A program made the position numbers and the translations under genes. The notes beneath the pieces are model-generated. The model saw nothing but the letters and a program-made list of their open reading frames with translations. It ran no database searches and was not told the origin of the DNA. Of a stretch of DNA of 64,000 nucleotides, positions 4,775 to 60,703 are shown piece by piece. Origin of the DNA: Anaerolineales bacterium. Lineage in GTDB: Bacteria > Chloroflexota > Anaerolineae > Anaerolineales > Villigracilaceae. Location of the stretch: NCBI GenBank assembly GCA_020847435.1, contig JADLBX010000032.1:62001-126000 (forward strand), read 5' to 3'. Numbering within the stretch: position 1 is the stretch's first letter; each line of letters opens with the position of its first letter.

Positions 4775-5902
4775 TTAGAGATTTCCTCGTCGTTCTTGTT
4801 CCAACTCAATCGACTCGAACAGCGCTTTGAAGTTGCCTTTGCCGAATCCTTTTGCGCCGTGGCGTTGGATGACTTCGATGAACATCGTCGGGCGGTCTTG
4901 AATCGGGCGGGTGAAGATCTGCAGGAGGTAGCCTTCGTCGTCGCGGTCAACGAGGATGCCGAGTTCGTGAATCGCTTTCATATCTTCCTTGATCGTGCCG
5001 ACGCGGTCGGGAAGAACTTCGTAATACGTATCTGGCACGCGCAGGAACTCGACGCCGCGTCTGCGAAGTTCGTCAACCGTTTTGAGAATATCGCCCGTGA
5101 TGATGGCGATGTGTTGCGCGCCAGGCGAGAGGTAATAATCGAGATACTCCTCGATCTGACTCTTGCGTTTGCCTTCGGCGGGTTCGTTGATCGGGAACTT
5201 GACGCGTCCGTTGCCGTTCTGCATCACCTTCGACATCAACGCCGAATATTCGGTGGAAATATCTTTATCGTCGAAGTGCAGAAGTTGGCGGAAGCCCATC
5301 ACCTGATGATAAAAATTCACCCAGTGATTCATCTTGCCCAACTGCACGTTGCCCACGATGTGGTCAATTGCGGCGAGACCCGTCGACTCGGCTTCATGCT
5401 TGATGGGACGATACGTGGGCGCAAACACGCCTTTGTAATCGTCGCGGTCAACGAAGACGTGCAACGTTTCGCCGTAGGTGTAAATGGCAGACGTGCGGTA
5501 AATGCCGTGGTCGTCTTTTTCTTCACGCGGCGCCCAACCAGACCTGCCTCCGCGCGCGGTAGTTTCCTTCCATGCTTTTTCCACATCGTCCACGCCGAGC
5601 GCGATAACTTTCACGCCATCGCCATGCACCATGTGATGCGCGGCAAGCGGACTCGACGGTGAGTACGGCGCAGAAACGACAAACCGCGCTTGCCCCGATT
5701 CCAACACATACGAAGCGAAGTCGCGGTTGCCTGTTTCAAGTCCCGAATAGGCAATGGGCTTGAAGCCGAACGCCTTCCACCAATAATACATGGCGTGCTT
5801 GGCGTTGCCCACGTAAAAGTGAACGTGATCGAATGATTTGATTTTCAGGAAGTCCGCCTCTTCGGTCATCGGGCGGGTTTCGGGTTGAACGGTTGTAGCC
5901 AT
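4775..5902 (-). CDS. hpd: 4-Hydroxyphenylpyruvate dioxygenase
   Basis: A 375-residue non-haem iron dioxygenase that converts 4-hydroxyphenylpyruvate to homogentisate. Two vicinal-oxygen-chelate domains are present: the N-terminal half opens with FDHVHFYVGNAK, the C-terminal half with IDHIVGNV. The iron ligands are expected at His of DHIVGN, His of GAQHIAI and Glu of MFIEVIQR near the C-terminus. The start at 5902 is chosen because AAAGGAGG lies 6 bases upstream; the open frame continues upstream without family similarity. It is the first gene of the tyrosine degradation cluster. Confidence 0.95.
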   Translation of the reverse strand: MATTVQPETRPMTEEADFLKIKSFDHVHFYVGNAKHAMYYWWKAFGFKPIAYSGLETGNRDFASYVLESGQARFVVSAPYSPSSPLAAHHMVHGDGVKVIALGVDDVEKAWKETTARGGRSGWAPREEKDDHGIYRTSAIYTYGETLHVFVDRDDYKGVFAPTYRPIKHEAESTGLAAIDHIVGNVQLGKMNHWVNFYHQVMGFRQLLHFDDKDISTEYSALMSKVMQNGNGRVKFPINEPAEGKRKSQIEEYLDYYLSPGAQHIAIITGDILKTVDELRRRGVEFLRVPDTYYEVLPDRVGTIKEDMKAIHELGILVDRDDEGYLLQIFTRPIQDRPTMFIEVIQRHGAKGFGKGNFKALFESIELEQERRGNL

Positions 5903-6002
5903 CGAGCCTCCTTTGTTGAGATAGAACGATTCTACGACAAAGAGAGTTCGATTGCAAATGAAAAACTTATGTGGCGCAGAGGGTGCGTCGCACCGTGTGC
6001 GA

Positions 6003-6917
6003 CTACGGCTTCGGATGCGCGACGAAAAATTCCCAGATGACTTCGCTGGCGGAAATCGCTTGTGTCGGTTCATCGCCTGCGGGACCCGCTGGACCGTCAC
6101 TGCCTGGCCACGCGTGTTTGCCCCCGACGATGGTGTACAGATGCACCGCGCTATTCGACGCACATTCGTCATACGCTTCAATTCGGACCTCGGGCTGGTT
6201 CGCCGACTTCGGCGTTTTCGCACATTGATCGTGGTCCAACCAAAAATTGATCGACTCTTCCACAGACTCGTAGTCAACGTTTGTGATGGAATCGTCGCCG
6301 ACTCCTCCGTCGTAGGGGAGGTGAGTATCGTCTGTGCCGTGGATGTGAATCACCGACACAGGCTCGCTCGGATCACATTCAGCGTAATTCAACGTCCCCG
6401 AGACGGGACCGATCGCCGCGAAAATATCCGCCGCTTCGCACGCCAGCCGATACGACATGATTCCGCCGTTGGAAAATCCCGCCGCGTAAATTCGCTTTGG
6501 GTCAATGTTGTATTGCGATTGGAGTTCGGCGATCAACGCGCGGACAAAGCCGACATCGTCAATTTGATTCTGAGCCGCGTAGCCGCAACACGCGCCGCCG
6601 TTCCATGTGAGGACGTTGCTATCGAGGCGACCTGTCCCGTTCGGGTAGACGACGATGAATCCATTTTTGTCGGCGAGTTCGTTGAAGCCGCTGACTCGGC
6701 GTTGGTTTTCTGCATTGCCTCCGCCGCCGTGAAAAGATAGCACAAGTGGAATGGGTTTGCTTGCATCATACGATGAGGGGACATGCAAAATATACGTCCG
6801 CTCAATGCCGTCGTGGGTAATGGATTCTGTCGAATCGGTTGGGGTGGCGGGAACGGTTTGGACGCAGGCGAGCAGGCTGAACGTCAGCGCGAGAAGCGTG
6901 ATTTGAATCCGCTTCAT
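6003..6917 (-). CDS. Secreted PHB-depolymerase/feruloyl-esterase-like lipoprotein
   Basis: A 304-residue alpha/beta hydrolase with a lipoprotein signal peptide (LLAC, Cys18). The oxyanion segment LSFHGGGGN, the nucleophile elbow GFSNGG, VIHIHGTDD with the acid residue and GGKHAWPG with the catalytic His are all in order, as in the esterase family that includes LpqC and polyhydroxybutyrate depolymerases. It acts outside the membrane on an ester substrate that cannot be named. The stop overlaps no other gene; the start overlaps the stop of the YbaK gene by 4 bp. Confidence 0.85.
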   Translation of the reverse strand: MKRIQITLLALTFSLLACVQTVPATPTDSTESITHDGIERTYILHVPSSYDASKPIPLVLSFHGGGGNAENQRRVSGFNELADKNGFIVVYPNGTGRLDSNVLTWNGGACCGYAAQNQIDDVGFVRALIAELQSQYNIDPKRIYAAGFSNGGIMSYRLACEAADIFAAIGPVSGTLNYAECDPSEPVSVIHIHGTDDTHLPYDGGVGDDSITNVDYESVEESINFWLDHDQCAKTPKSANQPEVRIEAYDECASNSAVHLYTIVGGKHAWPGSDGPAGPAGDEPTQAISASEVIWEFFVAHPKP

Positions 6918-7413: not shown

Positions 7414-7469
7414 GTAGACAGGTAAACAAGGAAACAAGTAGACACGTGTTTACCTGTCTACTTGTCTAC
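7414..7469. repeat. GTAGACAAGTA-type repeat forming a hairpin
   Basis: Strings of GTAGACA, GTAAACA and their reverse complements; GTAGACAGGTAAACA pairs exactly with TGTTTACCTGTCTAC. Related repeats lie at 51055, 51690 and 60639, and a short piece lies inside alaS at 21666. It fills the gap upstream of the YbaK gene. Confidence 0.8.
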
Positions 7470-17229: not shown

Positions 17230-19782
17230 TTACGGTCCTTTGAATTTCCAAAGCTCGATACCGGCATTATCGTTGCCGTTCGCCTGGAAATAGAGTTCGT
17301 TGTTGAAGATCGCCAGATACGATGGGCTGGCGTTTCCGGCAGAGTTGAGGTCGCCGACGAGTTTCGCGGCTGTGCCGTCGAACTTGTACAGTTCGAAGCC
17401 CTTGCCGTCGTTGCTGGTTGCGCTGAAGTACAACGCGCCGTTGAACACGGTGAGGAACGCAGGCGCGGAATCGCCCGCGTTGGGTTTGAGGTCCGTGACG
17501 CGTGAAGGCGTGTTGGTCCCGTCGTACTTCCACAGTTCGACGCCGAAACCGTCGTTGCCGTTCGCCGCGAAGTACAACACGTTGTTGAAGACCGCCAGAT
17601 ACGAAGGGTTGGAATTACCGACGCCGGGGTTGATATCTGCCACGCGGCTTGGGGGATTCGTTCCGTCATATTTCCAGAGTTCGGTCCCCGCGCCGTCGGT
17701 ACTTGCCGCGCTGAAGTACAACGCGTTGTTGAACGCCGCGAGATGCGACGGGTTTGAATCGCCGGAGCCGGTCAAAATATCGGCAACGAGTTCCACGCCG
17801 ACGCCGTCTGTGCGCCAGAGTTCGATGCCGGTCGCGTCGCTTCCTTTGGCGCTGAAGTACAGCCTGTCGTTGAACACAGTCAGGTAAGCGGGATTGGAAT
17901 CGCCTGTCCCGTTGTTGATCTCCGGCATTCTGCCGGGGTTCGAGCCGTTGAAACGCCAAAGTTCAACGCCCGCGCCGTCGTTGCCGTTCGCCTGGAAATA
18001 CAACTCGCCTTTGAAGGGCATGAGATAACTTGGGTTGCCGCTGCCGGGTCCCGGCATAATATCCGCCGCGCGCGTGGCCGTTTTCGAGGTCGCGTCGAAC
18101 TTCCACAATTCGGCTCCGGCGTTATCGTTGCCGGTGGCGCGGAAGTACAGTTGCCCATTGAACACAGCGAGAAACGCGGGTTCCGAGTTGTTCGCGCCGG
18201 GGTTGATATCCGCCGCGCGCTCGAAGGGCGAGGCTTGCGGAGTTGTGAGAGTCACTTCCAGCGTATACGGTTTCGCCGAACTCCCGGCAATCGCCACAAG
18301 GTCAATGTAGGCATCGCCGGTCGAAGGGATGGTTCCGTTGAAAATCAGGTTTGTATCTTGCTGTTTAAGGCTGGTCCCGTTCGAGGCGACGATGCCCAGC
18401 GCGAGTTCGTTGGCGGGTGAGCCGGTCACGCGGACCGTCAATGCCTGTCCCTGCGTCGCCGAAAAAACATAGCGCACTTTGCTGGAGGCTTGGACTGTGC
18501 CGTTCACCGTGACGTTGGGCGTGATGCGGATCGCGCCGGGCACCGGCTGTGTCGGCGGCGTTCCACTCGACGGGCAGGCTGTCGCGGCCGTTTGGGCGGG
18601 AGTCGCGCCCCCGGCCGAGTTCAACGGAATCTTGAGGCAGTTCCCAAACGACGGCGCGGTGACGGTTCGATTCGCGGCTTTGAGGACGACCACGTCGGCG
18701 TTGAAGCGTGTGGCGATGTTCTCCCACGTGTCGCCGATCTGCACCACGTAATATCCCGCGCACGGCGGACCGAAGATTGTCCCTTTCGAGCCGATGTTCG
18801 GCACGTTGACGGTCATGGCGGGGAGAATCCAATGTGGGTCGGGGATCTGCGGGTTCGCCGCGAGCGTCGCTTTGATGTCCGCGCCGTAACAGCGCGCGAT
18901 CTGGTACAGCCACTCGCCGCTGACCACGTTGTGAGTGATATTCGAGCCTTTGGTGAAGTTGCCGCCGGGCGCGGAGCCTTTGGTCACTGTACTGCTCGCA
19001 GGTTGGGCGGTGGTCGCACCGCCGCCTGCCGCCGTCACCGAGTTGACGATGCTCGCGGCGTTCATGTCGTTCTGGGTCACGGTGTATTTTGCCGAGCAGG
19101 TGAGCGATTCGTTCGGCGCGAGGGTTTTGGTCGCCGCGTCGCAGTTGATCGGCGCGGGGAACTTGTTATCGGTGATAACAAATTGCGCCGGTCCGAGGGT
19201 GGTTGAGCCGGTATTTTTCACCGAGTAGGTGTAGGTGATTTCCTGCCCGGTGGCGGTGTAGGTCGTCGGGTTGGGGCTGACCGTCACCGCGAGCGTCTTG
19301 TTCGATGCCATCGGTACGGTTGTTGTCACGCGGCTCGAAGGAACGCCTGCAACCTGCGCGGTCGCGTTGCTGACGACCGAGCCGGCGTTCAAATCGTTTT
19401 GTGTGATCGCGTAAGTGGAAAGGCAGGTGACGGTTTCGTCGCGGTCGAGGTTGTTGTCCAAGTTTCCCACCGAGTTGACAGCTGAACAGGCGGGAGGAGT
19501 CGTTTTGTCGTCCGTCACTGTAACGGGTCCCGCAAGCGAGGGGTTGCCCGTGTTCTTGACCGTGTAACTGTAGTTGATCGTCTGACCGGCTGTGTTGAAG
19601 ACCGAGTTGCCGTTCACCGCCGTAACCGCCAGGCTGATCGAGGCGACATCTCCCGAAGCAGGTCCGATCAAGGCTGGCGCCGCCTCCTCAGCTGGCGTAC
19701 TGGCGCCTCCGCCGAGGTTGCATCCGTACAGCGCCAACGCGATCACAAGCCCTAAAACCAGGAAGCGAGTAAAGACGTTCAT
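17230..19782 (-). CDS. Large surface lipoprotein: DUF11-like, LysM and ELWxxDG repeat domains
   Basis: An 850-residue lipoprotein (lipobox ALYGC, Cys21). Order of parts: two DUF11/CARDB-like beta domains at about 45-290 (YSYTVKNTGNPSL, YTYSVKNTGSTTL); two LysM domains at about 310-420 (HNVVSGEWLYQIARCYGADI, YYVVQIGDTWENIATRFNAD); a beta domain; then seven tandem repeats of about 47 residues from about 545 to the end, each with PSYLAVFNNxLYFxANGNDGxGxELWKFDG. The ELW repeats probably form a propeller-like surface domain. LysM suggests binding to peptidoglycan or another glycan. Start at 19782 with GGGAAAGGGC upstream; the frame upstream of it has no signal peptide. Confidence 0.85.
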   Translation of the reverse strand: MNVFTRFLVLGLVIALALYGCNLGGGASTPAEEAAPALIGPASGDVASISLAVTAVNGNSVFNTAGQTINYSYTVKNTGNPSLAGPVTVTDDKTTPPACSAVNSVGNLDNNLDRDETVTCLSTYAITQNDLNAGSVVSNATAQVAGVPSSRVTTTVPMASNKTLAVTVSPNPTTYTATGQEITYTYSVKNTGSTTLGPAQFVITDNKFPAPINCDAATKTLAPNESLTCSAKYTVTQNDMNAASIVNSVTAAGGGATTAQPASSTVTKGSAPGGNFTKGSNITHNVVSGEWLYQIARCYGADIKATLAANPQIPDPHWILPAMTVNVPNIGSKGTIFGPPCAGYYVVQIGDTWENIATRFNADVVVLKAANRTVTAPSFGNCLKIPLNSAGGATPAQTAATACPSSGTPPTQPVPGAIRITPNVTVNGTVQASSKVRYVFSATQGQALTVRVTGSPANELALGIVASNGTSLKQQDTNLIFNGTIPSTGDAYIDLVAIAGSSAKPYTLEVTLTTPQASPFERAADINPGANNSEPAFLAVFNGQLYFRATGNDNAGAELWKFDATSKTATRAADIMPGPGSGNPSYLMPFKGELYFQANGNDGAGVELWRFNGSNPGRMPEINNGTGDSNPAYLTVFNDRLYFSAKGSDATGIELWRTDGVGVELVADILTGSGDSNPSHLAAFNNALYFSAASTDGAGTELWKYDGTNPPSRVADINPGVGNSNPSYLAVFNNVLYFAANGNDGFGVELWKYDGTNTPSRVTDLKPNAGDSAPAFLTVFNGALYFSATSNDGKGFELYKFDGTAAKLVGDLNSAGNASPSYLAIFNNELYFQANGNDNAGIELWKFKGP

Positions 19783-20191
19783 TGTCCGTGCCCTTTCCCT
19801 TTCTGCCGAACGGCAAAAACTCCATGACGAATAAAACGATTTCGGATTTAGTATACGCAGTTTGACGGTATTTTTCAACCGAGAGTTCCCGATTTTTCAT
19901 GGCTTTCTCAAGAACCGAAAGGGGGGATTTTCGGTACACGGATTTCACGGATCAAATGGAGTTTTTTGCGTTGCTTACGGAAGAAACCGTATACTCCGTG
20001 TGTTCCGTGTACAAAAGAGAGATTCCGTCAACCTTTCTTGAGAAAACCATACCCGATTTTTTAGGTTTTTCAAAGTTGGAAAATTTTCAACGTAAATACA
20101 GCGCTCTTATGCAATTCCCCGGCTTTTGAAAACCACATCCAAATGCCGCTTGGTATAATTCCGATCATCTTTCACTTGGAGCGCTCAGTAC
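19783..20191. other. Intergenic region between divergent genes, with one inverted repeat
   Basis: No convincing gene. TACACGGATTTCACGGA at 19934 is the near-exact reverse complement of TCCGTGTGTTCCGTGTA ending at 20011, a repeat of the style often seen between genes. A TATAAT at 20154-20159 is a plausible alaS -10 box, giving a leader of about 30 bases. A small open frame through the region is formed largely by the repeat and was not called. Confidence 0.55.
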
Positions 20192-23014
20192 ATGACTCGC
20201 AAACCCAGCGGCAACGAAATCCGCCAGATGTTTATTGACTTTTTCGTCGAGCACGGACATACCGCCGTGCCATCCATGTCGCTTGTGCCGGGCGGCGACA
20301 GCACGCTTCTCTTCACCAATTCGGGCATGGTTCAGTTTAAAGACGTCTTTATCGGCACCGACAAAAAACCCTACACCCGCGCGGTGGACTCGCAGAAGTG
20401 TATGCGCGTGGCTGGCAAGCACAACGACCTCGAAGATGTGGGGCGCGACGATACGCATCACACCTTCTTCGAGATGCTCGGCAACTGGTCGTTCGGCGAT
20501 TACTACAAAAAGGAAGCCATCGCCTGGTCGTGGCAACTGCTCACCGAAGTTTGGGGCTTGCCGAAGGACAAAATTTACGCCACCTGTTTTGAAGACGACA
20601 AAGGCAATGTCCCGCGCGACGATGAAGCCGCCGATGCTTGGCGAGAACAGCCGGGCTTCAACCCCGAACACGTTCTGTTCTTCGGGCGCAAGGAAAATTT
20701 CTGGCAAATGGCGGAGACCGGTCCGTGCGGTCCCTGCTCCGAGATTCATCTCGACCGCGGCGAGGAGTTCGACAATCTGCGCGGCAAGCCGCACCGTTGC
20801 GGCGTGAACGGCGAGTGCACGCGCTTCCTCGAACTCTGGAACAACGTCTTCATTCAATACAATCTCTTCGACGACGGCCGCCTCGAACCGCTCCCACAAA
20901 AACACGTGGACACCGGCATGGGCTTCGAGCGTATCGTCTCCGTTCTGCAAGGCGTCGACTCGAATTACAAAACTGACCTCTTCACCGGCTCACTCGAAGT
21001 GTTGCGAAGCCTCACGGGTCACAGCGAAAAAGAAATGCTCGACAATTTCACGCCGTACCGCGTCATCTGCGATCACGTCCGTTCTGCCGCGTTCCTCATC
21101 GCCGATGGAATTGTCCCTGGCAACGCGGGCCGCAACTACGTGGCGCGCATGATCACCCGCCGCGCGGCGCGCTTTGGCTCAAAGATCGGACTCAACGAAC
21201 CATTCCTCGCTCAAGTCGCCGAAGCGGTGATTCGCCAATACGGCGATTTTTATCCCGAACTCAAAAAAGCGACGCCCGCCATCCTCGACAATTTGACTCG
21301 GGAAGAGATCCGCTTCGCGCGCACGGTGGAAGCGGGCTCTAACCATCTGGAGAATCTCCTCGCCGAACTTCGCGCTGAGCGGAGTGGAACGGAGACGAAG
21401 CGCGTGTTGGACGGTCACAAAGCCTTCGACCTCTACGCCACTTACGGACTCCCCTTTGAAATCTCACGCGACATCGCCCGCGAACAGGGACTCGATGTGG
21501 ATGAGCAAGGATTCAACGAAGCGAAAGAAAAGCACGCGCTTGCCTCCGGCGGCGGAAAGGCAATGGGCAAACTCGGCGGCGAAGACGCGGAGTTCTACGC
21601 CGAGATTTTGAAGAATTTGCAATCGAAAAAGAAACTCGGTAAAGACGGCGTTGAATATGATCCTTATACAGGAACACAAGTAGACAAGTATTCGGGGCTT
21701 GAGGTGTTGGCGTTGGTTGTGGATGGTCAACTGGTCGAGTCGGCGAACTTGGACGATCAAGTTGAAGTTGTCCTGCCGAAGACTGGCTTTTACATTGAAT
21801 CGGGCGGGCAGGTGGATGATACCGGTTACATTCGTTCCTTCGGCAGTTCAACTGCCGAAGGATCAGGCGAGCAAGAGGGGGGCTGGGAAATTGAAGTCAC
21901 TTCAATGCGCCGCCCGTCTGCGGGAGTGATCGTGCATGTCGGCACGGTGATCTCCGGTCAGCCGAAAGTGGGCGATAGCGCCGTCGCTGAAGTAGACGCG
22001 ACGCGGCGTCACGACATCATGCGGAATCACACCGCGACTCATCTCTTGCATAAAGCGTTACATGTTGTTTTGAGCGACCAAGCCACGCAAGCAGGCTCGC
22101 TTGTCGCGCCGACGTACCTCCGCTTTGACTTTAATCATCCCGAAGCGTTGACTCCTGAGCAACTGGATCGAATCGAGCGCATGGTCAACGATGCCGTCGC
22201 GGCGGATATGCCCGTTCACAAAGAATCGAAGTCGCTGGAGGAGGCTAAAAAGGAAGGCGCGATGGCGCTGTTCGGCGAAAAATACGGCGAGACGGTTCGG
22301 ACGATTTCGATCCTAGGCTCGTCGGGGTCTCAGACCCCAATGGAGCAAACAAGTTCGTCCAGCAGTTCAACTGCTGGACAACAGAAATATTCATACGAAC
22401 TTTGCGGCGGCACACATCTTGAGCGGACGTCCGATGTCGGCGCGTTTCTCATCGTGAGCGAGGGATCGGTCGCGGCGAACGTGCGGCGCATCGAGGCGGT
22501 GACCGGACGCGGCGCGTATGAGTTGATCCAGAAACGCTTCAAAGCCATCAAGCAGTCTGCCGCAATTTTGAAATCTAGCGTGGACGATGTGCCGAAGAAA
22601 GTGGAAAGCGGACAAAATGAAATTGCCGAGTTGAAAAAGGAAGTTGCGAACCTTCGCGCTCAACAAGCATTGTCAACTTTCAGCGCGCAACTTTCCAGCG
22701 TTCGAGCCGTGAAGGATGTGAACGTTCTCGCGGCTGAAATCCCGAACGCGGACGCGGACACACTGCGGATGCTGGCGGATAAGTTTCGCGAAAAATATCC
22801 GAAGGGTGGAGTCGCTGTACTGATAACTGGGGCAACCGTAATCGCGGTCGTGACCGAGGATCTCGTCAAGCGCGGAATCAAAGCGGGCGAGCTCATCACG
22901 GGCATCGGAGGCAAAGGCGGCGGGCGCCCGAATATGGCGCAGGGCAGTCTGTCGAACGGCGGCGCGGACGCGTTGGCGCACGTCGGCAGAATTGTCGAAG
23001 AAAAATTGAAGTAG
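20192..23014 (+). CDS. alaS: Alanyl-tRNA synthetase (with repeat-derived inserts)
   Basis: A 940-residue class II synthetase. Seen in order: N-terminal RQMFIDFFVEHGHTAVPSMS and LLFTNSGMVQFKDVF (motif 1/2 region), GFERIVSVLQG (motif 3), the editing-domain zinc site HTATHLLHKAL (HxxxH) with CGGTHLERT, and a C-terminal GGRPNMAQGS in the C-Ala domain. Usual length is about 870-890, so it is about 50-60 residues longer. The excess lies in short stretches encoded by dispersed repeats at 21368, 21666, 21836 and 22321-22379, all in frame and outside the core motifs. The start is supported by class II homology and a TATAAT 33 bp upstream. Confidence 0.97.
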   Translation: MTRKPSGNEIRQMFIDFFVEHGHTAVPSMSLVPGGDSTLLFTNSGMVQFKDVFIGTDKKPYTRAVDSQKCMRVAGKHNDLEDVGRDDTHHTFFEMLGNWSFGDYYKKEAIAWSWQLLTEVWGLPKDKIYATCFEDDKGNVPRDDEAADAWREQPGFNPEHVLFFGRKENFWQMAETGPCGPCSEIHLDRGEEFDNLRGKPHRCGVNGECTRFLELWNNVFIQYNLFDDGRLEPLPQKHVDTGMGFERIVSVLQGVDSNYKTDLFTGSLEVLRSLTGHSEKEMLDNFTPYRVICDHVRSAAFLIADGIVPGNAGRNYVARMITRRAARFGSKIGLNEPFLAQVAEAVIRQYGDFYPELKKATPAILDNLTREEIRFARTVEAGSNHLENLLAELRAERSGTETKRVLDGHKAFDLYATYGLPFEISRDIAREQGLDVDEQGFNEAKEKHALASGGGKAMGKLGGEDAEFYAEILKNLQSKKKLGKDGVEYDPYTGTQVDKYSGLEVLALVVDGQLVESANLDDQVEVVLPKTGFYIESGGQVDDTGYIRSFGSSTAEGSGEQEGGWEIEVTSMRRPSAGVIVHVGTVISGQPKVGDSAVAEVDATRRHDIMRNHTATHLLHKALHVVLSDQATQAGSLVAPTYLRFDFNHPEALTPEQLDRIERMVNDAVAADMPVHKESKSLEEAKKEGAMALFGEKYGETVRTISILGSSGSQTPMEQTSSSSSSTAGQQKYSYELCGGTHLERTSDVGAFLIVSEGSVAANVRRIEAVTGRGAYELIQKRFKAIKQSAAILKSSVDDVPKKVESGQNEIAELKKEVANLRAQQALSTFSAQLSSVRAVKDVNVLAAEIPNADADTLRMLADKFREKYPKGGVAVLITGATVIAVVTEDLVKRGIKAGELITGIGGKGGGRPNMAQGSLSNGGADALAHVGRIVEEKLK
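21368..21400. repeat. CGCTGAGCGGA..CGAAG repeat inside alaS
   Basis: CTTCGCGCTGAGCGGAGTGG followed by AACGGAGACGAAG, in frame, encoding LRAERSGTETK. Close relatives are in the oxidase gene (26583), after eutC (47963) and in nadE (61302). It occurs in the middle of the synthetase, before the editing domain. Confidence 0.7.
21666..21695. repeat. GTAGACAAGTA repeat fragment inside alaS
   Basis: ACAGGAACACAAGTAGACAA at 21668 matches the GTAGACAAGTA repeats at 7414, 51055, 51690 and 60639. It is read in frame as YTGTQVDKYSG. Confidence 0.65.
21836..21862. repeat. GCAGTTCAACTGC palindrome inside alaS
   Basis: A 27-bp perfect palindrome with TCCTTCGGCAGTT on the left arm, translated in frame as SFGSSTAEG within the editing-domain region. 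Same family as intergenic palindromes at 9945 and 13219. Confidence 0.8.
22321..22379. repeat. Two palindromes in tandem inside alaS
   Basis: TCGGGGTCTCAGACCCCA (GGGTCTCAGACCC type, relative at 24380) is followed 17 bp later by a GTCCAGCAGTT..AACTGCTGGAC palindrome. Together they encode a Ser/Thr/Gln-rich linker directly before the zinc-site segment YSYELCGGTHL. Confidence 0.8.
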
Positions 23015-24428: not shown

Positions 24429-27400
24429 ATGGCGCTCCCTCGCGAGTTTTTGTTCGAACTGCATAAAAGATTCACCGGTGATATCCGCACCGATTTGGCA
24501 TCGCGGATTTTGTACAGCTCCGACGCGAGCATGTACCAGATCGAGCCGCTGGGAGTTGTAATGCCGCGGACTCAGGACGAGTTACACGCGGCAGTTGAGT
24601 TAGCGGCAAAGTATGAAATCCCGATTCTGCCGCGTGGGGCAGGGACGAGTCTCGCGGGTCAGGCGGTTGGCGAAGCGCTCATCCTCGATTGCTCGCGCTG
24701 GTTGGATAAAATCATCGAGGTTAACCCCGAAGAAAAATTCGCAATTGTCGAGCCGGGCGTCGTCCTTTCCGATTTGAACAACGCAGCGGCGAAGCATGGG
24801 TTGATGTTCGGTCCCGACCCGGCTTCTGCCGAACGCGCGACAATGGGCGGCGTGATCGCCAACAACGCGACCGGCGCGCATTCGATTGTTTACGGCATGA
24901 GCGCGGATCATATCTTGGAAGCGGACGTGATTTTGGGGGATGGGAGTATTGCGGTTTGGAGGGAGTTCACGAAGGATGAATTTGGAAGGATGAAGGATGA
25001 AAACAGCCTGATGGGGAGCGTGGCGTCAACATCTTTTTTGATACGAGAAAAATATGCCGAAGCCATTAAGCGGAATTATCCGAAAACATGGCGGAATTCA
25101 GCCGGATATCGCTTGGACTACCTTTTGCCCTTTTCGACGACAAAACCCCCGCGATGGCTGGACGATTACCCTTCGATTCATCCTTCATCATTCAGCCTTC
25201 ATCCTTTACTTGCCGGTTCCGAAGGCACGCTGGCGGTCATGCGGCGGATGAAAGTCAATCTCGTTGCAAAGCCGAAACAGACCGCGCTGGTTGTCTTGTC
25301 GTATCCGAGCGTCGCTGAGGCATGCGACGATGTGCCGCGTTTGTTGAATCACGACCCATCTGCGATTGAGTTAATTCCAAATACGATTTTGCGTGCGGCG
25401 CGAAGTTCGGCGGGCTACGCGAGTCAGGCAGGCTGGATTCACGGCGATCCCGCTGCGGTGTTGGCGGTTGAATTTGACGATGGGCGTGAGACGATTTCGC
25501 TCGGCGAAAATGTGATTGCGATTGCGCGCTCGAAAGAAGAACAAGCGCAAGTTTGGAACGTCCGCAAAATGGGTTTGGGGCTGTTGGATTCACAGCCACG
25601 TTCGGCGCGCCCGATCGCGTTCATCGAAGATTGCGCGATCCCCGTCGAGCGGCTGGGCGAGTTCGTGCGCGAGGTGGAGCGGATCATGTCCGCTCATGGG
25701 ACGGAAGGCGGGATTTACGCCCACGCCTCAGCAGGATGTTTGCACATTCGACCGGTTCTGGATTTGAAGACGACGCGCGGCGTGGAGAGTCTGCGCGCCA
25801 TCAGCGAGGCGGTTCTTTCTCTGACGTTGAGTCTGGGCGGCGCCTTCAGCAGTGAACACGGGGACGGCTTGTCGCGCTCCGAGTATCTTGCGCGCGCATA
25901 CGGCGATGAGGTGATGAGCGCCATGCGGCTGTTGAAAAACGCGGCTGATCCGCATCACATCTTGAACCCTGGCAAGATCATTGACCCGCCAAACATGGAT
26001 ACGAACCTTCGTTACGGCGTTGATTACAAAACGCACGCGTGGACTCCGTCTCTTTCGTTTGCAAGCCAGGGCGGCTTTGAGTTGGCAGTGGAGCAATGTA
26101 ATGGACAAGGCGTGTGCAGGAAATCAACAGGCGTGATGTGTCCGTCCTTTCAGGCGACGCGGGAAGAGATGCACTCGACGCGGGGGAGGGCGAATCTGTT
26201 GAGGGTGTTGATTGCAGGACACGGGATACGAGATACGCGATACGAAATCGGAAATCGTAAATCTGAAATTGAAAATTCTGTTTTCCAAGCCCTCGACCTG
26301 TGCCTCGCGTGCAAAGGCTGCAAAGCGGAATGTCCGAGCGGGGTGGACATGGCGAAGTTGAAGTATGAGTTTGAAAACGAATATTACAAAACGCATCGCC
26401 GTCCGTTGCGAGATTATGTGTTCGGATATTTCCACGTTGTGGCGAAAGTGTTGTCGCCTATTGCGCCGATTGCAAATTGGTTGATGGAGTTTGGTCCCAC
26501 CAAGAAGTTGATCGCAAATGTTTTGGGATTGGCAGAGGCGAGGTCGTTGCCGAAGATCCGCCGGACTATGTCATTGCGAGCTCGCGCTGAGCGGAGTGAC
26601 GAGCGCTTGCCGAGGAACGCAGGCGAAGCGCGGCGAAGCAATCTCCTCGAATCCAAAGAAAATTTTGATAACCAGGAGAGTGCTTCGCCGCCAAAGAACA
26701 CGAGCGGCGGCTCGCAACGGCGTGTGGTTATATTTCTTCCCGATGTCTTCTCGCGTTACATTGAACCACAGGTGGAAGACGCCGCGTTGGAGGTGTTGAC
26801 CGCGTGCGGATATGACGTGCGCGTTCTGCCTGTCGTGGGCGCGGGGGCGTCATTGCTCTCGAAGGGATTCGTGGATGCGGCGCGGCGTCAGGCGCGGAAA
26901 ACGTTGGAGTTGTTGAACCAGCTCGACCCGTCGCGTGAAGCGTTTATCGTCGGGGTGGAGCCTCCTGAAATATACCTGCTGAAAAACGATTATGCGGATT
27001 TGCTTGCCAAATGTGCGGATGAAATCCGCACACTGACAAAGCGTGTCTGGTTGTTAGATGAATTTCTTTTGCGATCAAAAGAGTTTGAAGTCCTGCGTGT
27101 AGGCAGGTGGGGTAATAAGATAGGCGACAAAAAATTGGAAACTAGAAAGAACCGAAAAATATTTTTTCATCCGCACTGTCATCAGCGCGCGGAGCGATCG
27201 TCGGCGAGCGCCAGCGTCGAGTTGTTGCGCGCCTGCGGTTACGACGTGGAGTTGAGCGACGTGGGTTGTTGCGGCTTGGCAGGGACGTTCGGATTCGAAG
27301 CGGAGCATTACGCGCTTTCGATGCAGGTTGGAGAGTTGAAGTTGTTGCCGCGCGTGAGAGAATTAGAGTTTGGAGAATTGATCGCGGCAACCGGCGCAGC

Positions 27401-27479
27401 ATGCAGGATGCAAGTGCGGCACGGATCAGGACGCGAGGCGCGGCATCCGATCGAGTGGGTGAGGGAGGCGGTGGGTTGA
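24429..27479 (+). CDS. Fused FAD-linked oxidase / Fe-S oxidoreductase (GlcD-GlcF-like) with repeat insertions
   Basis: A 1016-residue fusion. Residues about 1-540 form an FAD-binding type 4 and C-terminal oxidase unit (PRGAGTSLAGQAVG, GGVIANNATGAHSIVYG, FSSEHGDGLSRSEYL, ILNPGKI). Residues about 555-690 carry a [4Fe-4S] ferredoxin-like domain (CNGQGVCRK, CLACKGCKAECPSGVDM), and the C-terminal part is a CCG/heterodisulfide-reductase-like domain (FHPHCHQRA, DVGCCGLAGTFG). Enzymes of this architecture oxidise D-lactate, glycolate or other 2-hydroxyacids. Four in-frame repeat-derived stretches (24970, 25176, 26216, 26568) interrupt it without shifting the frame. Confidence 0.92.
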   Translation: MALPREFLFELHKRFTGDIRTDLASRILYSSDASMYQIEPLGVVMPRTQDELHAAVELAAKYEIPILPRGAGTSLAGQAVGEALILDCSRWLDKIIEVNPEEKFAIVEPGVVLSDLNNAAAKHGLMFGPDPASAERATMGGVIANNATGAHSIVYGMSADHILEADVILGDGSIAVWREFTKDEFGRMKDENSLMGSVASTSFLIREKYAEAIKRNYPKTWRNSAGYRLDYLLPFSTTKPPRWLDDYPSIHPSSFSLHPLLAGSEGTLAVMRRMKVNLVAKPKQTALVVLSYPSVAEACDDVPRLLNHDPSAIELIPNTILRAARSSAGYASQAGWIHGDPAAVLAVEFDDGRETISLGENVIAIARSKEEQAQVWNVRKMGLGLLDSQPRSARPIAFIEDCAIPVERLGEFVREVERIMSAHGTEGGIYAHASAGCLHIRPVLDLKTTRGVESLRAISEAVLSLTLSLGGAFSSEHGDGLSRSEYLARAYGDEVMSAMRLLKNAADPHHILNPGKIIDPPNMDTNLRYGVDYKTHAWTPSLSFASQGGFELAVEQCNGQGVCRKSTGVMCPSFQATREEMHSTRGRANLLRVLIAGHGIRDTRYEIGNRKSEIENSVFQALDLCLACKGCKAECPSGVDMAKLKYEFENEYYKTHRRPLRDYVFGYFHVVAKVLSPIAPIANWLMEFGPTKKLIANVLGLAEARSLPKIRRTMSLRARAERSDERLPRNAGEARRSNLLESKENFDNQESASPPKNTSGGSQRRVVIFLPDVFSRYIEPQVEDAALEVLTACGYDVRVLPVVGAGASLLSKGFVDAARRQARKTLELLNQLDPSREAFIVGVEPPEIYLLKNDYADLLAKCADEIRTLTKRVWLLDEFLLRSKEFEVLRVGRWGNKIGDKKLETRKNRKIFFHPHCHQRAERSSASASVELLRACGYDVELSDVGCCGLAGTFGFEAEHYALSMQVGELKLLPRVRELEFGELIAATGAACRMQVRHGSGREARHPIEWVREAVG
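24970..25002. repeat. AAGGATGAAGGATGAA repeat inside the oxidase gene
   Basis: GAAGGATGAATTTGGAAGGA and GAAGGATGAAAAC form a run of the AGGATGAA unit, in frame (KDEFGRMKDEN). Complementary ATCCTTCATC units lie at 25176; similar runs are upstream of eutB and in nadE. Confidence 0.65.
25176..25209. repeat. TTCATCCTTCATC repeat inside the oxidase gene
   Basis: ATTCATCCTTCATCATTCAG and CCTTCATCCTTT encode IHPSSFSLHPL in frame. It is in reverse orientation to the unit at 24970 and falls just before the conserved LAGSEGTL segment. Confidence 0.65.
26216..26280. repeat. GATACGAGATACG / GAAATCGTAAATC repeat inside the oxidase gene
   Basis: A low-complexity stretch made of GATACGAGATACGCGATACG and GGAAATCGTAAATCTGAAAT units, translated as IRDTRYEIGNRKSEIENS. 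It sits in the linker between the FAD/first Cys region and the main Fe-S cluster motif. The translated string looks unlike the rest of the protein. Confidence 0.7.
26568..26719. repeat. Full-length TGTCATTGCGAG element inside the oxidase gene
   Basis: Begins ATGTCATTGCGAGCTCGCGC, contains GAAGCAATCTCC and the reverse GTGCTTCGCC, and ends GGCGGCTCGCAACG, as in the intergenic members of the family. It is 152 bp long and contributes about 50 codons (residues 714-763) between the Fe-S domain and the CCG domain without a stop or frameshift. Confidence 0.88.
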
Positions 27480-43879: not shown

Positions 43880-43981
43880 GGGGCTAAAGCCGCCTGCTCA
43901 GTGCATGGAAGCCCATCGGGCTTGCCCAACAGAGTCCGCTTCAGCGGACTTTCACGAACTGAGGCAGGGATTTATCCCGCC
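43880..43981 (+). repeat. REP element, left of the transposase
   Basis: GGGGCTAAAGCCGCCTGCTC, an AGCCCATCGGGCT hairpin, the palindrome GTCCGCTTCAGCGGAC, then GAACTGAGGCAGGGATTTAT and CCCGCC. Matched by a copy at 44501-44614. Confidence 0.88.
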
Positions 43982-44065
43982 GAAACACCGCCATGGATGA
44001 GCGCATTGGTCCCTTGAGCGTTATGATGTTGATTGTCTTATCATCATGAAAAAAGGAATTCTAAA

Positions 44066-44488
44066 TTGACCTACTGGCGGCTTCACTATCATCTCATCTG
44101 GGCGACGTTTGAACGCGAGCCGAGTCTTACGCCAGAACGTGAGAAGATATTCTATGGAGTACTGTACAACAAGGCGAACGAATTAGGAGTGAAAATCCAT
44201 GCGGCAGGTAATATTATTGAACATGCTCACGTGGTTGCTTCAATCCCGCCGAAACTTGCCGTGGCTGACTGTGTTCGTCATCTCAAAGGAGCGAGCTCGT
44301 ATGCCATCAATCACATGCCAGGCAGTGATGGAAATTTCAGATGGCAGGGCGGGTACGGCGCGATAAGCATTGGTGAACGCTCGCTGGAATCGGTCAAGGA
44401 ATATGCCGCAAAACAGAAGGAACATCATCGTGAAAACAGGCTCATTGATATTTACGAACGGATTGACGAGGATGAAGATGACGTATGA
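44066..44488 (+). CDS. REP-associated tyrosine transposase (IS200-like, RAYT)
   Basis: A 140-residue Y1 transposase. Seen: start TYWRLHYHLIWATFERE, typical of RAYT proteins; the HUH-type metal motif IEHAHVVASIPP (His-Ala-His); RWQGGYGAISIG; and the catalytic Tyr region VKEYAAKQKEHHR. It would cut and move single-stranded DNA at REP hairpins. The start is TTG at 44066, with AAAAGGA 9 bases upstream; another TTG at 44033 in frame lacks this. Length is near the usual 140-160 residues and the frame is intact. Confidence 0.88.
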   Translation: MTYWRLHYHLIWATFEREPSLTPEREKIFYGVLYNKANELGVKIHAAGNIIEHAHVVASIPPKLAVADCVRHLKGASSYAINHMPGSDGNFRWQGGYGAISIGERSLESVKEYAAKQKEHHRENRLIDIYERIDEDEDDV

Positions 44489-44500
44489 TTGGGATAGAGC

Positions 44501-44614
44501 GGGGCTAAAGCCACCTGCTCAGTACGTGAAAGCCCTTCGGGCTCGCACTCGCGACGACCGCTCGGAGTCCGCTTCAGCGGACTTCCACGAACTGAGGCAG
44601 GGATTTATCCCGCC
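44501..44614 (+). repeat. REP element, right of the transposase
   Basis: GGGGCTAAAGCCACCTGCTC, AAGCCCTTCGGGCT hairpin, GTCCGCTTCAGCGGAC palindrome, and GAACTGAGGCAGGGATTTAT. Same orientation as the left copy, with a 12-bp extra segment (CACTCGCGACGA) in the middle. Confidence 0.88.
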
Positions 44615-50734: not shown

Positions 50735-51058
50735 ATGCCTGTAGATGTTGCAATGATCGCTTTAGGAATGGTGGAGACCAAAGGTTTGGTCGGCGCGATC
50801 GAAGCCGCCGATGCGATGGTCAAAGCCGCAAACGTGACGCTGATCGGCAGTGAGTATGTCGGCGGCGGATACGTGACCGTGATGGTGCGCGGAGACGTCG
50901 GCGCGGTGAAAGCCGCCACAGACGCTGGCGCTGCCGCGGCAAAACGCGTCGGTGAACTTGCGTCGGTGCATGTGATTCCACGCCCGCACGGCGATGTCGA
51001 GATGATCCTGCCGCAGAATAGCAAGGGTTCGTTCGGCGGGCGGGGCAAAGAGAAGTAG
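50735..51058 (+). CDS. eutM: EutM/PduA-type hexameric shell protein
   Basis: A 107-residue BMC-H protein that builds the shell facets. The domain is complete: [61 protein letters not shown], and VHVIPRPH. The C-terminus is about 12 residues longer than EutM and rich in Gly/Lys ([12 protein letters not shown]). A good AAGGAG precedes the start. The stop codon TAG is the first part of a GTAGACA repeat. Confidence 0.95.
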
Positions 51059-51133
51059 ACACGTATTCAAGTAAACAAGTAGACACGGAACACATGTGTA
51101 CTTGTATACGTGTGTACATGTTTACCTGTCTAC
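51055..51133. repeat. GTAGACA/GTAAACA repeat, eutM-eutQ gap
   Basis: GTAGACACGTATTCAAGTAA, ACAAGTAGACACGG, and then the inverted run GTGTACTTGTATACGTGTGT and TTTACCTGTCTACC. It begins at the eutM stop and ends 6 bp before the eutQ start. Confidence 0.82.
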
Positions 51134-51139
51134 CTCCTC

Positions 51140-51691
51140 ATGCCGCGTCAATTATTTACTGCGGAGGATATCCGCCGCCTGGCGCGTGAGCGCGCGGGTC
51201 CGCTTGTGCTTGCGCCCGACGATATCGTCACAGCCGAAGCGCAGGACGTCGCGTTCGCTTTGGGCGTGAAGATGATTCGGGAAGCCGAATCAGCCGTCCC
51301 GTCGGAAAGAAGCGCCGCGTCCACTGCCGCGAATCTTCCGCCGTTGAAAGTCGTCAAAATGGCGAACGTCCAGATGGAGCAATTCATCGAGGGCAGGACC
51401 ACGCCGGGCGCTCACGTCTGGCTCAAGGATGTGGTCGTCACGCAGGATCGCTCGCCGATGGGCGCGGGGTTCATGTCGCTCGATAAAGGCGAGATGGCGT
51501 GGACGCTGACGTATGACGAAATTGACATTGTGCTGGAGGGCGAACTCGTGATCACGCGCGGCAGTGAGCAGGTGCGCGGCAAAACGGGCGATGTGATCTT
51601 CATCCCCAAAGGTTCGAGCATCACTTTTGGGACGCCCAACTGGACGCGCTTTGTGTATGTGGTGTTTCCGGTGAATTGGAATGAGAAATGA
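51140..51691 (+). CDS. eutQ: EutQ acetate kinase-like cupin
   Basis: A 183-residue protein with the two parts of EutQ: a short N-terminal module (RQLFTAEDIRRLARERAG, VLAPDDIVTAEAQDVAFALG) and a C-terminal cupin (HVWLKDVVVTQDRSPMGAGF, DEIDIVLEGELVITRG, GDVIFIPKGSSITFGTP). E. coli EutQ (233 residues) has acetate kinase activity and is needed for BMC biogenesis. The linker between the modules is short here. No ribosome-binding site is visible; the region upstream is a repeat. Confidence 0.9.
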   Translation: MPRQLFTAEDIRRLARERAGPLVLAPDDIVTAEAQDVAFALGVKMIREAESAVPSERSAASTAANLPPLKVVKMANVQMEQFIEGRTTPGAHVWLKDVVVTQDRSPMGAGFMSLDKGEMAWTLTYDEIDIVLEGELVITRGSEQVRGKTGDVIFIPKGSSITFGTPNWTRFVYVVFPVNWNEK

Positions 51692-51770
51692 GTAAACAAG
51701 TACACAGGTACACAAGTAGACAAATGCGCGGCTTACGTGTTTACATGTCTACGTGATTCCGTGTGTACGG
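51690..51770. repeat. GTAAACAAGTACACAGG repeat, eutQ-eutJ gap
   Basis: AGTAAACAAGTACACAGGTA, CACAAGTAGACAAATG, then GTGTTTACATGTCTACGTG in reverse. It starts in the eutQ TGA stop and fills the gap to eutJ. Confidence 0.8.
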
Positions 51771-59737: not shown

Positions 59738-60643
59738 ATGAACGTCATCGTCACCACGCCGCCGTACGCCGACTTCCTCGCCGAGGTCGCGTCGCATCCC
59801 ATTGTGAGCGGATTCCGCCTCAACACTGTGATGCCTCTACGCGAAACGCAACGCGAGGTCTTGCAGCGCCTGGGCAAATACAATCAGCCGATCTGGGTGG
59901 ATTTGAAGGGGCGGCAGTTGCGCGTGGTCGGCGCGGCGATCCCGCCGTACACGGAGATAAAACTTTCCCATCGCATCAAAGTCGAAACGCCGGTCGACGC
60001 GTATTTTTCCGACGGGCTGGAACGCGTCCGCGTGGCGGCAGTGGACGGCGACCGACTCATCCTAGCCGACGGTCCGCGACGACTTGTCGGTCCGGGCGAG
60101 TCGGTTAACATCATGCACTCGTCGCTGAAAATCGAAGGTACGCTCACCGAAACGGACAAGACCTATCTCGCCGCGATGAAAGAACTTGGCATGACGAAGG
60201 TGATGCTTTCGTATGTCGAGTCGGTGGAGGATGTGGACGAGGTGAAAAGCCTCCTGTCGAACGCGGAAGTCATCCTCAAGATCGAAACGCAACGCGGGCT
60301 TGACTTCGCCAAGAAACACGGCGCGAAGCATGGGCATCTCATGGCGGCGCGCGGCGACCTGTTCGTGGAGGTGATTCGCCCGCACAAGATCGCGTCCGCT
60401 GTGAAGGCAATCGTCCAAGCGGACAAAGACGCGGTCGTCGCCAGCCGCATTTTGGATTCGATGGCGCTGAGTCCCATCCCCGCGAGCGCCGACATCGGCG
60501 ATGTGGCGTTTTTGCTCGAGATCGGCTATCGCACATTCATGCTTGGCGATTCAGTTTGCTTGAGCCGCGAGTCCGTGATCGAGGCGTTGAATTTGCTGGA
60601 AGAGATGGGGAAGGACTACGCGGGGAAACACGAAGGCAGGTAG
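59738..60643 (+). CDS. Pyruvate kinase-like barrel protein
   Basis: A 301-residue protein that resembles the pyruvate kinase barrel: PIWVDLKGRQLRVVG in the place of the DTKGPEIR motif, a small insert like the B domain (EIKLSHRIKVETPV ... GPGESVNI), VILKIETQRGLDFA with the catalytic Lys, and HLMAARGDLFVEVI like the MVARGDLG motif. It lacks the C-terminal effector domain and is far shorter than the usual 470-residue kinase. Whether it is catalytic is unclear; the family of short PK homologues has no assigned role. Confidence 0.75.
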   Translation: MNVIVTTPPYADFLAEVASHPIVSGFRLNTVMPLRETQREVLQRLGKYNQPIWVDLKGRQLRVVGAAIPPYTEIKLSHRIKVETPVDAYFSDGLERVRVAAVDGDRLILADGPRRLVGPGESVNIMHSSLKIEGTLTETDKTYLAAMKELGMTKVMLSYVESVEDVDEVKSLLSNAEVILKIETQRGLDFAKKHGAKHGHLMAARGDLFVEVIRPHKIASAVKAIVQADKDAVVASRILDSMALSPIPASADIGDVAFLLEIGYRTFMLGDSVCLSRESVIEALNLLEEMGKDYAGKHEGR

Positions 60644-60702
60644 ACAAGTAGACAGGGAAACACGGTAACAGGGAAGCACGGAAACAGGTAAATAGGTACA
60701 CA
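60639..60702. repeat. GTAGACAAGTAGACAGG repeat
   Basis: GGTAGACAAGTAGACAGGGA, AACACGGTAACAGGG and GGAAACAGGTAAATAGGTAC. It begins in the stop codon of the pyruvate kinase-like gene and ends at the nadE start. Confidence 0.82.
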
Positions 60703-60703
60703 C

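Follow-up and report, generated by a model that had tools for sequence, protein, structure and literature searches.

How does the gene of an essential enzyme come to carry several unrelated repeats within its reading frame? The question is raised by alaS, the gene for alanine--tRNA ligase (alanyl-tRNA synthetase, AlaRS), in a 64,000-nucleotide stretch of an Anaerolineales bacterium (assembly GCA_020847435.1, contig JADLBX010000032.1, positions 62,001 to 126,000; the whole stretch is called the window). The window lies on contig C32 of its genome (G000), a 3.05-Mb draft in 74 contigs that is 88.57 percent complete; other genomes and loci are given as G and L numbers. An initial annotation, made from the letters alone, had marked five repeat pieces in this gene. 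All five were found where it had placed them, in frame, at four loops (S1 to S4) of an intact gene.

20192..23014, plus strand: alaS, alanine--tRNA ligase, the intact host gene (940 codons, TIGR00344 equivalog at 822.7 bits)
21373..21404, plus strand: S1 insert, a GAGCGGAG-type piece of family D, about +15 nt, the weakest of the five
21668..21696, plus strand: S2 insert, an octamer array (GTAGACAA-like), +12 nt
21834..21864, plus strand: S3 insert, family A hairpin GTTCCTTCGGCAGTTcAACTGCCGAAGGATC, with a 13-bp perfect stem at 21836-21862
22317..22349, plus strand: first S4 insert, family E hairpin with GGGGTCTcAGACCCC at 22324-22338, a 33-nt in-frame difference
22353..22382, plus strand: second S4 insert, family A hairpin GTTCGTCCAGCAGTTcAACTGCTGGACAAC, with an 11-bp perfect stem at 22357-22379

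We conclude, with a probability of roughly 0.8, that dispersed, mostly palindromic repeats inserted into alaS and left the five pieces there as copies or remnants, that its loops have been refilled by unrelated families, and that small enzymes probably move the hairpins. As far as sequence comparison can tell, the insertion itself, the preserved frame, the dispersed copies of families A, B and E and of the octamers, the reoccupation of the same loops, and presence or absence among close relatives are all directly visible.

The insertion is apparent from an alignment of alaS from relatives. Of the 110 sequences offered, 107 were kept (L076, L078 and L091 were left out for a frame shift or stop), and removal of 25 duplicates or contained sequences gave 82 non-identical rows, including that of G000. 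Those relatives that bear names (80 loci) are Anaerolineales or Chloroflexi metagenome genomes, one of them labelled Candidatus Villigracilaceae. The insert columns have an occupancy of 0.46-0.62, against 0.98-1.00 for their flanks, which bears out the statement that the inserts lie outside the motifs of the enzyme. A loop is defined here by alignment gaps and not by structure coordinates, and at S3 also by a gap of 13 residues in the sequences of solved AlaRS. S1 and S2 precede the AlaX-like editing region, S3 and S4 are inside the stretch that matches the editing protein AlaXM (521-768), and S4 stands directly upstream of the conserved YSYELCGGTH segment.

Compared with empty loops, the excess in G000 is 5 residues at S1, 4 at S2, 13 at S3 and 19 at S4, 41 in all. 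The excess of about 50-60 residues given at first was therefore too high; the protein has 940 residues, against a median of 920 (76 rows above 880), and nine rows are longer than 940. At these points relatives with empty loops are without the extra length, and homologues, instead of the same residues in codons unrelated to the repeats, have nothing or a different sequence, in many cases one of another repeat family. The 33 nt of family E at S4 are present in G000 and absent from its nearest relative, G012. In G000, only one match to alaS was full-length; the other was partial (20.9 bits). An artefact of assembly or binning might be suspected from the draft state and incompleteness of G000, yet the alaS frame is intact, the same family A hairpin stands at S3 of the single-contig genome G012, and many further assemblies have like inserts at these loops. 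We give this explanation practically no weight.

The pieces proved to have many counterparts elsewhere in the genome. The canonical family A copy of G000, GTTC-nnnnn-GCAGTTcAACTGC-nnnnn-GAAC, is a hairpin of 31 nt with a single unpaired base at its centre. Its middle arms differ among copies, yet the arms of most copies stay complementary, with perfect stems of 7 to 20 bp. The core GCAGTTNAACTGC occurs at 48 exact places in G000, against 0 for the reversed-pattern control (controls in 40 relatives, 0-5); the core GGGTCTNAGACCC of family E (GGGTCTnAGACCC) occurs at 17, against 0 (relatives' controls, 0-2), and family B has 48 strict hairpins, against 0. Within the window, octamer family D1 numbers 17 copies whose registers overlap.

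A 474-kb sample was also scanned, with genes predicted by a simple custom script. The two-unit octamer was found at 25 positions, against 1 in one mononucleotide shuffle. Family A had 11 positions, three of them in predicted genes (two in alaS, one at a doubtful gene start), and the loose family E pattern had 5, against 2 in a shuffle, the only one in a gene being that of alaS. Since the contig of the finding is part of this sample, it is no unbiased gauge of how special alaS is. Perfect hairpins numbered 38 in predicted genes, against 10 in one codon shuffle, and 73 between genes, against 4. The view that the pieces stem from several dispersed families thus held for family A, family E and the octamers, but less well for the GAGCGGAG piece as a repeat copy of G000. 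This piece gave three weak BLAST matches elsewhere in the genome (E 2.7e-5 to 6e-4), and the loose pattern of family D was little above chance (69 matches in the 474-kb sample, 41 in a shuffle), which weakens the case of S1. S1 is empty in 68 of the 82 rows; comparable or clearer copies are present in L012, L020, L029, L049, L057 and L065. S2 is likewise empty in 68 rows, and in L011 it holds 24 nt (three octamers) more than in G000. The arrays at S2 of L100 and L115 are coding, with 15-nt periods (8+7) that keep the frame; the octamer arrays of the window step by 8.

What occupies a given loop differs greatly between relatives. S3 is empty in 32 of the 82 rows and holds family C in 15, B in 14, D in 6, H in 4, A in 3 and I in 1, the remaining 7 being unclassified. 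These labels were assigned manually on the basis of the sequences, those of L030, L069 and L115 being corrected before counting; the S4 labels are uncorrected and no family count was made from them. S3 holds six families in all, and the distribution of its states over the alaS tree requires 41 changes or more. This is a quick tree with 29 of 79 inner branches starred and 22 open, on which gain and loss are indistinguishable and related species count as separate rows. Sister rows hold different families at S3: B in L022 and D in L023, B in L013 and L014 and C in L015, C in L011 and A in L012, C in L043 and B in L046. The S4 loop exceeds 36 nt in 44 rows, and the other 38 have no insert there. 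Altogether the 82 genes contain 44 perfect hairpins with a stem of at least 9 bp, against a mean of 12.8 after codon shuffling; three loops account for 32 of them. Stacked copies also occur (E and A at S4 of G000, two A at S4 of L011, paired B at S3 of L024 and L096).

We considered the possibility that these loops are ordinary fast-evolving linkers, in which palindromes and repeats were made in place by slippage and template switching and no mobile element took part. The octamer and heptamer arrays do resemble slippage products (24-nt and 15-nt steps at S2), co-varying arms within copies would be expected from template switching too, and strict copies of family C are rare elsewhere in the genomes. 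If the repeats had arisen in place, however, the cores would not be common to so many unlinked copies in G000, nor would unrelated families be found at one and the same loop, nor would short hairpins share a single position in metH with complete units that carry a nuclease gene (see below). We therefore hold this explanation to be improbable. Slippage alone as the source of the hairpins was rejected, since the cores are shared and dispersed.

Selection of the inserts for a benefit to the enzyme or its mRNA, for instance through mRNA hairpins setting the pace of translation or loops adjusting AlaRS editing, appears more unlikely still. The placement of S3 and S4 within the AlaXM-matching stretch, S4 being just before the CGGTH motif, would fit such a role, as would the frequency of filled loops (S3 in 50 rows, S4 above 36 nt in 44). 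Yet the inserted peptides of sister species are entirely different, 32 (S3) to 38 (S4) of the 82 rows do without them, and the same families also sit between genes.

Among other housekeeping genes, the same turnover was found in valS and metH, and hardly in recG. In 30 valS genes there are 25 hairpins with a stem of at least 9 bp, against 4.4 after shuffling, and 15 of the 25 fall at two loops; five of all 25, at residues 0-16 of stop-to-stop frames, could precede the start codon. Depending on the species, these two loops hold family A, B or C, hairpin families N and O, or arrays of octamers and heptamers. One loop of recG holds family K in G000 and family B in two relatives. For metH, 34 genomes with the following part of the gene gave 30 loci, of which 28 loops were read (L363 and L369, at contig ends, were excluded). 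Five of the 28 contain a unit with a DUF559 gene (G000, G006, G007, G021 and G024, that of G006 being counted from two contigs), three a short B/C hairpin (G022, G047 and G023), two octamers, one family N, one family O, five the AATTACC type (two of these only remnants) and one another hairpin (G012); three are unclassified and seven short or free of repeats.

Complete units, in which a DUF559 gene is bounded by hairpins, were found in frame within three housekeeping genes.

L331:1331-5581: metH of G000 with an in-frame DUF559 unit (1417 codons; TIGR02082 at 1053.9 bits, cut-off 1010.85)
L247:3292-3723: insert in valS loop 2 of G043, B hairpin, DUF559 (PF04480, 126.7 bits), B hairpin, in frame (432 nt, 144 codons)
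L339:1860-5405: uvrA of G047 with an in-frame DUF559 unit (UvrA model at 1460 bits in two stretches)

In the metH of G000, DUF559 occupies residues 768-874 and is flanked by B-type hairpins. The unit is absent from G012, where the loop has 32 residues against 235 in G000, the two proteins being 97 percent identical over the 493 residues that follow. A metH with DUF559 was further found in G002, G042, G077 and G104. The metH and valS frames matched no intein or intron model of Pfam or NCBIfam at the thresholds used, and inspection of the metH, valS and uvrA inserts by eye, rather than by a scan, revealed no splicing part. DUF559 is also present in large frames at L338 and L342. The frame at L338 has no NCBIfam match at E 1e-60, and its DUF559 looks intein-borne, with a VVHNC end followed by DNA-methylase-like sequence.

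The valS insert of G043, with B hairpins around DUF559, provided a lead to what might move families B and C. DUF559 matches are present in 39 of the 45 genomes of the relatives set, and the best-scoring ones made up 30 loci, of which at least two (L271 and L275) are copies inside metH. A hairpin with polypyrimidine arms lies within 100 nt of the DUF559 match in 22 of these 30 loci, and on both sides in 9. Control loci have such hairpins in 0/30 cases for recG, 3/30 for valS and 2/30 for alaS, that is 5/90 housekeeping loci, and in 0/20 for the RAYT transposase genes described below, 5/110 in total (Fisher p 1.3e-14); at positions 800-1000 nt away within these 30 loci the count is 2/105. The figure of 22/30 is post hoc, because the polypyrimidine-arm definition was made after the flanks of these loci had been viewed; the strict B pattern is near DUF559 in only 3 of the 30. 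Two further sets were examined later with the same definition. Elsewhere in the phylum (other orders or classes, frames below 400 aa), a hairpin lies within 120 nt of DUF559 in 21/22 loci, on both sides in 10/22, and at shifted positions in 4/84; with a 60-nt window the counts are 12/22 and 2/84. On plasmids of other phyla, 5/6 loci have one (two in Azospirillum, one each in Deinococcus, Synechocystis and Sinorhizobium), the sixth, in Pseudanabaena, having none by the definition and a C-like palindrome visible by eye.

In some short B/C copies (L022 in alaS, L226 in valS, L371 in metH), CCCTCACCC and GGGTGAGGG arms are still present beyond the hairpin, and among 248 strand views of B hairpins from all collected loci, 118 have a GGGnGAGG tail within 22 nt, about one per element. 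Over 25 genomes, with ancestry ignored, the number of B hairpins correlates with that of DUF559 matches (rho 0.64, p 0.0006). The Caulobacter DUF559 protein VsrA is described, in excerpts of its report, as a Vsr-like endonuclease behind DNA damage (PMC12907096). Among open-licence papers mentioning DUF559, the field covered by this search as distinct from subscription papers and preprint servers, none dealt with palindromic repeats in its title or the start of its abstract.

For family E, neighbourhood points to another enzyme. REP-associated tyrosine transposases (RAYT, where REP stands for repetitive extragenic palindrome) have a hairpin of at least 8 bp near the frame ends in 15 of 20 loci, the hairpins being of several kinds. 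On contig C263 of G040, strict E hairpins at 282-294 and 661-673 bracket a Y1_Tnp match at 445-609; a strict E copy and a near one stand on opposite sides of the RAYT of L282, and a near E copy accompanies that of L286. No B/C-type hairpin lay beside RAYT in the 20 loci, and no family A core was among the hairpins there. A RAYT-type Y1 transposase frame is also present in the window itself (44033-44485, PF01797, 74.9 bits); it is flanked by AGTCCGCTTCAGCGGACT palindromes, one at 43933 and one at 44566.

Taken together, these findings suggest the following course of events. Small dispersed repeats would insert into alaS; those that leave the frame intact and lie in tolerant loops would survive, being probably neutral for AlaRS, and only such permissive loops would fill because selection removes insertions that are out of frame or damage the core. 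During the divergence of species the same loops would have lost their contents and been filled again by unrelated families. The GGGTCTnAGACCC hairpins may be moved by RAYT-type Y1 transposases and, in relatives, the polypyrimidine-arm families B and C (at S3 of 29 of the 82 rows) by a Vsr-like DUF559 nuclease, in which case the short B/C copies might be units that lost the nuclease. Loops already occupied may offer later elements a better or safer target, and the stacked copies would then be explained. Families B and C might even represent an undescribed class of mobile element, a proposal on which we are evenly divided. Such an element would consist of a hairpin with polypyrimidine arms and a GGGTGAGGG-like tail, moved by a Vsr-like DUF559 protein that is usually encoded by a small gene between two hairpins. 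It would stand in full form, in frame and unspliced in metH, valS and uvrA, have short derivatives in loops of alaS (S3), valS, metH and recG, behave like a homing element without splicing, and occur in several phyla.

Several observations weigh against this account. recG is barely enriched, with 6 hairpins against 3.8 after shuffling; as it too is a long housekeeping gene, genes and loops must differ greatly in their hairpin load. The strict pattern of family C occurs at no more than two sites in any of 25 genomes (range 0-2), so that 'dispersed' is a weak description of this family. Of the features of a miniature inverted-repeat transposable element, hairpins are present; at the single recent alaS insertion looked at (S4, G000 against G012), no clean target-site duplication was seen. 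When an enzyme flanked by family A, the commonest family in this alaS, was sought, none was found; the two stretches between A copies (L298 and L299) turned out to hold ordinary genes. One of these genes carries another in-frame A copy. In G000, DUF559 turned up only as the metH copy and a divergent partial match (225-aa frame, 49.7 bits), despite the 48 strict B hairpins. In the 25 genomes, again with ancestry ignored, the number of B hairpins correlates with that of RAYT as well (0.48, p 0.015), and the number of DUF559 matches with that of the unrelated family A (0.46, p 0.02).

The hairpins beside DUF559 could, moreover, partly be terminators, or the gene could lie in a repeat-rich neighbourhood, the nuclease being unrelated to their movement. 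The connection seen is one of neighbourhood, and the correlation of B with RAYT as well as the late fixing of the hairpin definition are in keeping with such an alternative. Such hairpins are rare, however, at the control loci, and in both sets they are rare at equally wide positions 800-1000 nt away. Furthermore, hairpins flank DUF559 on both sides in 9/30 and 10/22 loci, and terminators make no sense for units that lie in frame within metH, valS and uvrA. This alternative is somewhat doubtful, though it carries more weight than those discussed for alaS, and we favour a role of DUF559 in moving the hairpins.

Protein-coding palindromes are best known from Rickettsia and, to our knowledge, what moves them has not been settled. 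Rickettsia palindromic elements (RPEs) are described, in the parts of the literature considered, as in-frame elements (PMC2229807, PMC2635572) in conserved protein genes, retained as an extra peptide and also found between genes (PMC2229807, PMC3733652); they are Rickettsia-specific and 105-146 bp long, the REP-like RPE-4 and RPE-6 being shorter (PMC2229807, PMC3733652). The likeness proposed in the initial annotation was right as an analogy, the palindromic repeats of Anaerolineales being likewise in frame in conserved protein genes (alaS, valS and metH). Compared with RPEs by description, however, the Anaerolineales units are smaller, about 31-60 nt (31 nt for family A, 33 nt for the E insert), and they show turnover of unrelated families at the same loop as well as whole nuclease-bearing units in frame.

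Intragenic REPs are reported from several bacteria, often in genes for replication and repair, with uvrA among the hosts, and GTAG repeats from Chloroflexi, in the available sections of PMC3733652, the only fitting paper among the matches listed in a search for Chloroflexi and intragenic palindromes that covered neither subscription papers nor preprints. Our repeats resemble the REP/RAYT system in having hairpins of 20-40 bp, hairpins adjoining RAYT genes at some loci and intragenic copies, and the inserts of family H start with GTAG (by eye). They differ in that no GTAG/CGTC foot was seen in copies of A, B, C or E by eye rather than by a systematic scan, and in that B and C adjoin DUF559, such hairpins being absent from the 20 RAYT loci. 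Repeated colonisation of one loop in orthologues has no counterpart in the account of PMC3733652, as far as its considered sections go.

PD-(D/E)XK and EDxHD are among the homing endonuclease families, according to excerpts of PMC6083498 and PMC3943268. Like inteins and group I introns, the DUF559 unit places a nuclease gene in frame inside a conserved gene; unlike them, it is bounded by hairpins and, judged by its sequence, is apparently translated along with the host gene as additional residues. The short tandem and small dispersed repeats of cyanobacteria include units of 7-8 nt and small mobile hairpins. The Anaerolineales arrays differ from these in sitting in coding loops, with steps that preserve the frame. 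The 'parking loops' of alaS, valS and metH are thus akin to RPEs and intragenic REPs and identical with neither.

At fixed loops of alaS, valS and metH, Anaerolineales provide dozens of natural examples of empty and of filled states, and for some of the families candidate movers can be named. Two questions thereby become testable: by what route such repeats enter a gene, and what amount of foreign peptide is tolerated by an essential enzyme. If polypyrimidine hairpins are indeed moved by DUF559, a widespread family named for its unknown function would gain one.

Other repeats were noted in the window. Two genes downstream of alaS, a 1016-aa frame (24429-27479) contains in-frame repeats of the ATGTCATTGCGAG and GCGACGAAGCAATCTCC types (26568-26589 and 26630-26649) as well as a IRDTRYEIGNRKSEIENS stretch that looks repeat-derived. 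In the minus-strand frame 4775-6277, a 36-nt in-frame difference at about 5970, with the hairpin-like GTCGCACcGTGTGCGAC, is absent from G012. Octamer arrays of families D1 and D10 lie at 7414-7469, 51047-51133, 51676-51752 and 60616-60704, the first three being followed by inverted copies. Finally, an 882-aa lipoprotein-like frame (17230-19878, minus strand) holds several ELWK-type repeats with a spacing of 141-147 nt.

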